Shown: one piece after another, positions 14,947 to 15,188 of the stretch
How the letters are laid out: every line of letters begins with the position of its first letter
How positions within the stretch are numbered: the first letter of the stretch is position 1
The notes under the pieces: model-generated
Databases searched by the model: none
Told to the model about the DNA's origin: nothing
The model's input: the letters and a program-made list of their open reading frames with translations, nothing else
Source of the DNA: Polyangiaceae bacterium
GTDB taxonomy: Bacteria > Myxococcota_A > Polyangia > Polyangiales > Polyangiaceae
DNA: 64,000 nucleotides
Reading direction: 5' to 3'
Assembly (NCBI GenBank): GCA_013214025.1
Contig: JABSRN010000153.1
Coordinates: forward strand, 7,501 to 71,500
Made by a program: the position numbers and the translations under genes

Positions 14947-15105
14947 TCAGTCCGTGCTGGCGTCAAGCTGGGAGCTGGCTAGGGTGGCGTCTGGACCCGT
15001 GTCAGCCTGGTCTTTCTGATAACGCCGGTTGGCGGCGCTGCAGGCAGTCAACGCTGAGCCCAGCATAAAGACGGAAACGGCCACCAAAATTGCGGATTTT
15101 AACAT
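14947..15105 (-). CDS. Very small lipoprotein (52 residues)
   Basis: The peptide starts MLKSAILVAVSVFMLGSALTAC, a lipoprotein signal with lipobox ALTAC, followed by a short polar tail of about 30 residues (SAANRRYQKDQ...). The ATG at 15103-15105 has AGGGA eight bases upstream, formed partly by the duplicated stop region. No domain is recognised. Its 5' end lies within a 53-bp tandem duplication that also copies the 3' end of the upstream secreted-protein gene. It precedes ettA by 76 bp. Confidence 0.6.
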   Translation of the reverse strand: MLKSAILVAVSVFMLGSALTACSAANRRYQKDQADTGPDATLASSQLDASTD

Positions 15106-15188
15106 CGTTAACGTCCCTAGAATCGACCGTAAAGAACCAAAATTGCGGATTTTAACATCGTCAACGTCCCTAGAATCGACCGTAAAGA
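15083..15188. repeat. 53-bp tandem duplication spanning a gene junction
   Basis: Copy 1 is 15083-15135 and copy 2 is 15136-15188; they differ at one position (T versus C in the CGTYAACG stretch). Each copy contains the last codons and TAG of the upstream secreted protein, the AGGGA ribosome site, and the first codons of the small lipoprotein, all on the minus strand. Confidence 0.9.
15117..15158 (-). CDS. 13-codon chimeric mini-ORF created by the duplication
   Basis: An ATG at 15156-15158 with the same AGGGA site as the real lipoprotein opens a frame reading MLKSAILVLYGRF and then TAG (15117-15119). The first eight residues are the lipoprotein N terminus and the last four are the C terminus of the upstream secreted protein. 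It is the by-product expected from a tandem duplication across the junction. It could act as a translated spacer between the two genes; no function is shown. Confidence 0.4.
   Translation of the reverse strand: MLKSAILVLYGRF

Follow-up and report, generated by a model that had tools for sequence, protein, structure and literature searches.

A 53-bp tandem duplication across the junction of a secreted-protein gene and a small lipoprotein gene in a Polyangiaceae genome

Two head-to-tail copies of a 53-bp unit lie on the minus strand of the window, by which we mean the whole 64,000-nucleotide stretch of Polyangiaceae DNA analysed, at the point where a gene for a secreted protein gives way to one for a small lipoprotein. 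The best explanation, to which we assign a probability of about 0.77, is that two co-directed genes underwent an ordinary, near-neutral short tandem duplication where they adjoin, and that the chimeric reading frame formed between the copies is incidental. The type of mutation is ordinary and its effect is small at most. The 53 bp spanning the gene junction were probably copied by replication slippage, or by end-joining of sites close to each other. After such an event the upstream gene would still have its own stop, in the outer copy, and the downstream gene would retain its start, in the inner copy. Because each gene keeps one whole end, the change would be near-neutral although 53 is not a multiple of three. 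The features concerned are collected in Table 1.

Table 1. Features at and around the duplicated gene junction, in window positions
Feature	Positions	Strand	Remarks
Secreted protein, 325 aa	16147-15170	minus	stop 15172-15170; ends PWVGLGSAGLYGRF
Outer copy	15188-15136	minus	the secreted-protein gene's own last codons and stop, then the spacer and an additional start codon
Chimeric mini-ORF	15158-15117	minus	MLKSAILVLYGRF-stop; read from sequence, predicted frame only
Inner copy	15135-15083	minus	duplicated C-terminal codons and stop (the mini-ORF end), spacer, true lipoprotein start
Small lipoprotein, 52 aa	15105-14947	minus	LTAC lipobox, judged by eye
EttA, ABC-F protein	14870-13197	minus	downstream neighbour

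Structure of the duplicated unit

The copies are identical at 52 of 53 positions, a match far above chance on which TRF and a repeat search agree. They are adjacent and direct, highly alike, and bounded on both sides by single-copy sequence, as is characteristic of a short tandem duplication. Read on the minus strand, the outer copy is TCTTTACGGTCGATTCTAGGGACGTTGACGATGTTAAAATCCGCAATTTTGGT, and the inner copy is the same except that it reads TTAACG; the sole mismatch, at the 27th base, is G in the outer copy and A in the inner one, and falls in the non-coding spacer. From 5' to 3' on this strand, each copy comprises (T) CTT TAC GGT CGA TTC TAG, which encodes LYGRF-stop and represents the last five codons of the secreted-protein gene, an 11-nt stop-to-ATG spacer with a Shine-Dalgarno-like site (GGACGTTGACG or GGACGTTAACG), and ATG TTA AAA TCC GCA ATT TTG GT, the first codons of the lipoprotein gene. 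A first-pass annotation of this DNA had described two 53-bp copies, one base apart, that hold the end of a secreted-protein gene, a ribosome site and the start of a lipoprotein gene, and this description is confirmed by TRF, the repeat search and the sequence itself. Its placement of the lipoprotein start about 11 bp further on likewise agrees with the stop-to-ATG distance of 11 nt in both copies; it did not mention that all of these features are on the minus strand.

Outer and inner copy meet at TTTTGGTTCTTTACGG. The tetranucleotide TGGT stands at both ends of the unit, yet there is one extra T at the junction, which, as the letters read, breaks a simple slippage model and leaves an exact junction apparently devoid of microhomology. 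Short breakpoint homology is typical of slippage, though not obligatory.

The unit is AT-rich, with 41% G+C as compared to 62% in the window. This composition, together with the near identity of the copies, would suit a binding site or other regulatory repeat retained for its DNA or RNA sequence. Such a role is highly improbable, as the gene ends and the ribosome site fully account for the unit, no promoter-like site was found at the repeat, the duplicated region has no Rfam match and an ordinary fold energy (z -0.84), and the repeat occurs at one locus in its genome. A regulatory RNA at the repeat was dismissed on the same fold energy and the same Rfam result.

Genes on either side

Gene order on the minus strand is two thioesterase-family genes, the secreted protein, the duplicated stretch, the lipoprotein and EttA. 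The secreted protein has an alanine/proline-rich stretch after its signal peptide, followed by a conserved C-terminal part; no Pfam or NCBIfam family matches it above cut-off. Relatives were found across the bacterial family and order, with a match in 68 of 97 genomes, and the protein family is a large one, with several copies per genome within this bacterial family. Directly before the stop, most relatives have the motif PWVGxxSAGxxGxF, found conserved among some 20 family members. As the relatives share this C-terminal motif, the outer copy carries the authentic end of the secreted-protein gene.

The lipoprotein begins in the inner copy and retains a normal signal peptide and lipobox. Across 182 further genomes of the order, no relatives of it were found, and neither the lipoprotein nor EttA stands beside the secreted-protein relatives at any of the relative loci read. 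Both flanking genes are intact despite the duplication. A 108-aa ORF with a TTG start in the lipoprotein frame was also considered and dismissed, the extension overlapping the conserved C terminus of the secreted protein in another frame.

The chimeric frame and translation of the lipoprotein

The ATG of the outer copy reads MLKSAILV and then continues across the junction as LYGRF-stop, for a total of 13 codons. The 13-residue fusion of the lipoprotein N terminus to the secreted-protein C terminus that the initial reading proposed is therefore present as a frame in the sequence. The stop of the inner copy is in frame with the start of the outer copy, a frame agreement that is a one-in-three event, and the mini-ORF appears to be a chance by-product of the duplication. 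The extra start differs in phase by two bases from the true lipoprotein start and is therefore unable to lengthen the lipoprotein; an N-terminally extended form is ruled out, since 53 is not a multiple of three and a stop closes the frame after 13 codons.

With the second copy in place, 64 nt separate the secreted-protein stop from the lipoprotein start, against 11 in a single-copy arrangement. In E. coli, reinitiation depends strongly on distance, falling by 40-80% at +14 nt and being nearly gone at +38 nt (PMC10666635). Given this steep dependence, any direct coupling that existed between the two genes would be lost across the 64-nt gap. In the same work, reinitiation in E. coli needed no more of the upstream gene than its final 15 nt (PMC10666635), and the mini-ORF, which repeats the 11-nt arrangement, could therefore serve as a relay. 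Ribosomes that use it would go from the secreted protein to the mini-ORF and from there to the lipoprotein across two 11-nt gaps, so that any coupling would be relayed. The mini-ORF would then be at most a neutral relay, with little or no effect expected.

The further suggestion that the extra start could alter translation of the lipoprotein finds no support. The mean unpaired probability predicted at the lipoprotein start is 0.43 with the outer copy and 0.41 without it, and the mini-ORF stop lies 11 nt from the lipoprotein start, just as the secreted-protein stop would in a single-copy arrangement. An attenuator, in which RNA structure gates the downstream gene, is not indicated either, as evidenced by the ordinary fold, the unchanged accessibility and the want of an Rfam match.

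It might still be argued that the mini-ORF controls the lipoprotein level, acting as a functional leader or an attenuating minicistron, given that its Shine-Dalgarno-like site and start are the same as those of the lipoprotein and its stop is so close upstream. We regard this as very unlikely: the peptide is the exact chance product of two gene ends, and accessibility of the lipoprotein start is predicted to be unchanged. Both the lipoprotein and the 53-mer are absent from all relatives searched. Just as doubtful is the proposal that a fresh duplication gave rise to a minicistron of 13 codons that is translated and relays or tunes lipoprotein translation, a snapshot of the birth of a leader ORF. 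Were the mini-ORF translated, it would show a leader ORF arising in one step; nothing at the locus indicates any activity.

Relatives and age of the duplication

GTDB contigs searched with the secreted protein returned no near relative having the locus, and those searched with a 41-base core pattern of the repeat gave no match. A DNA search of 108 genomes of the family returned trivial matches of 31-60 bases elsewhere and nothing more. No single-copy ancestral state was found among the relatives searched, and we infer the direction of change, a duplication and not an old two-copy state. A recent origin is plausible, given one difference in 53 bp.

Comparison with known systems

The locus resembles short spontaneous bacterial tandem duplications in having two near-identical head-to-tail copies of some tens of bases, no mobile element and intact flanks. 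It differs from them in spanning a gene junction and so yielding a 13-codon hybrid frame, and in that simple microhomology is not seen at its breakpoint. Searches of the literature found no direct precedent for a duplication at a gene junction in which a ribosome site is copied. With termination-reinitiation coupled pairs (PMC10666635) it shares co-directed genes, a short stop-to-start distance and a Shine-Dalgarno-like site at the stop codon; unlike those pairs, the genes here stand at +11 nt with no overlap, and a relay frame of 14 codons is inserted. With +11 nt in place of an overlap, coupling is expected to be weak.

Base rate of comparable duplications and the quality of the assembly

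About 1.6 Mb of the draft genome (5.77 Mb, 184 contigs) was scanned for tandem copies to give a base rate. Most tandem arrays in this sample have a period that is a multiple of three. Coding repeats are expected to have such periods. The few exceptions have units of 53, 83, 65, 76, 29 and 28 bp. To illustrate, an 83-bp two-copy duplication with one T/C mismatch occurs on the same contig as the window (C61:110400-110565), and its unit apparently holds the last codons and stop of one ORF together with a start codon. A 65-bp tandem duplication (C10:16062-16184) covers the final codons, including the stop, of an amino-acid-kinase gene with an argB-like ending. The remaining exceptions are a cluster of exact 29- and 76-bp tandem units, partly inverted relative to each other (C97:100806-101112), and a 28-bp array that lies terminally on contig C10. 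Short two-copy duplications, of 123 bp and 78 bp, also occur in two genomes of the family that are assembled in few contigs. Frame-breaking duplications occur where they are harmless, at gene ends, and form the expected class of survivors, of which the 53-bp junction is a clean example.

The same survey bears on whether the second copy is real. Two contig ends carrying the alleles of one single-base variant might have been abutted rather than merged, such that one locus is displayed twice. The mismatch does fall at the exact middle of the unit, flanked on either side by 26 matching bases, a coincidence of about 1 in 53 (~2%) for a random substitution, and 53 equals 2k-1 at k = 27, as would be expected of a single-base bubble, k = 27 being hypothetical for this assembly; the number of contigs also marks the genome as a draft. 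We nevertheless consider an artefact unlikely. The ~1.6 Mb scanned holds no further two-copy duplication of 53 bp and none with a central mismatch, the mismatches in the 83-bp and 65-bp duplications are off centre, and at the single assembly gap seen 100 N stand in place of abutted ends. Moreover, a de Bruijn path through the junction would require reads that cross it, as there is no k-1 overlap there. The 100-N gap is located inside a 30-bp repeat array on contig C1 (8677-9026 of the scanned stretch).
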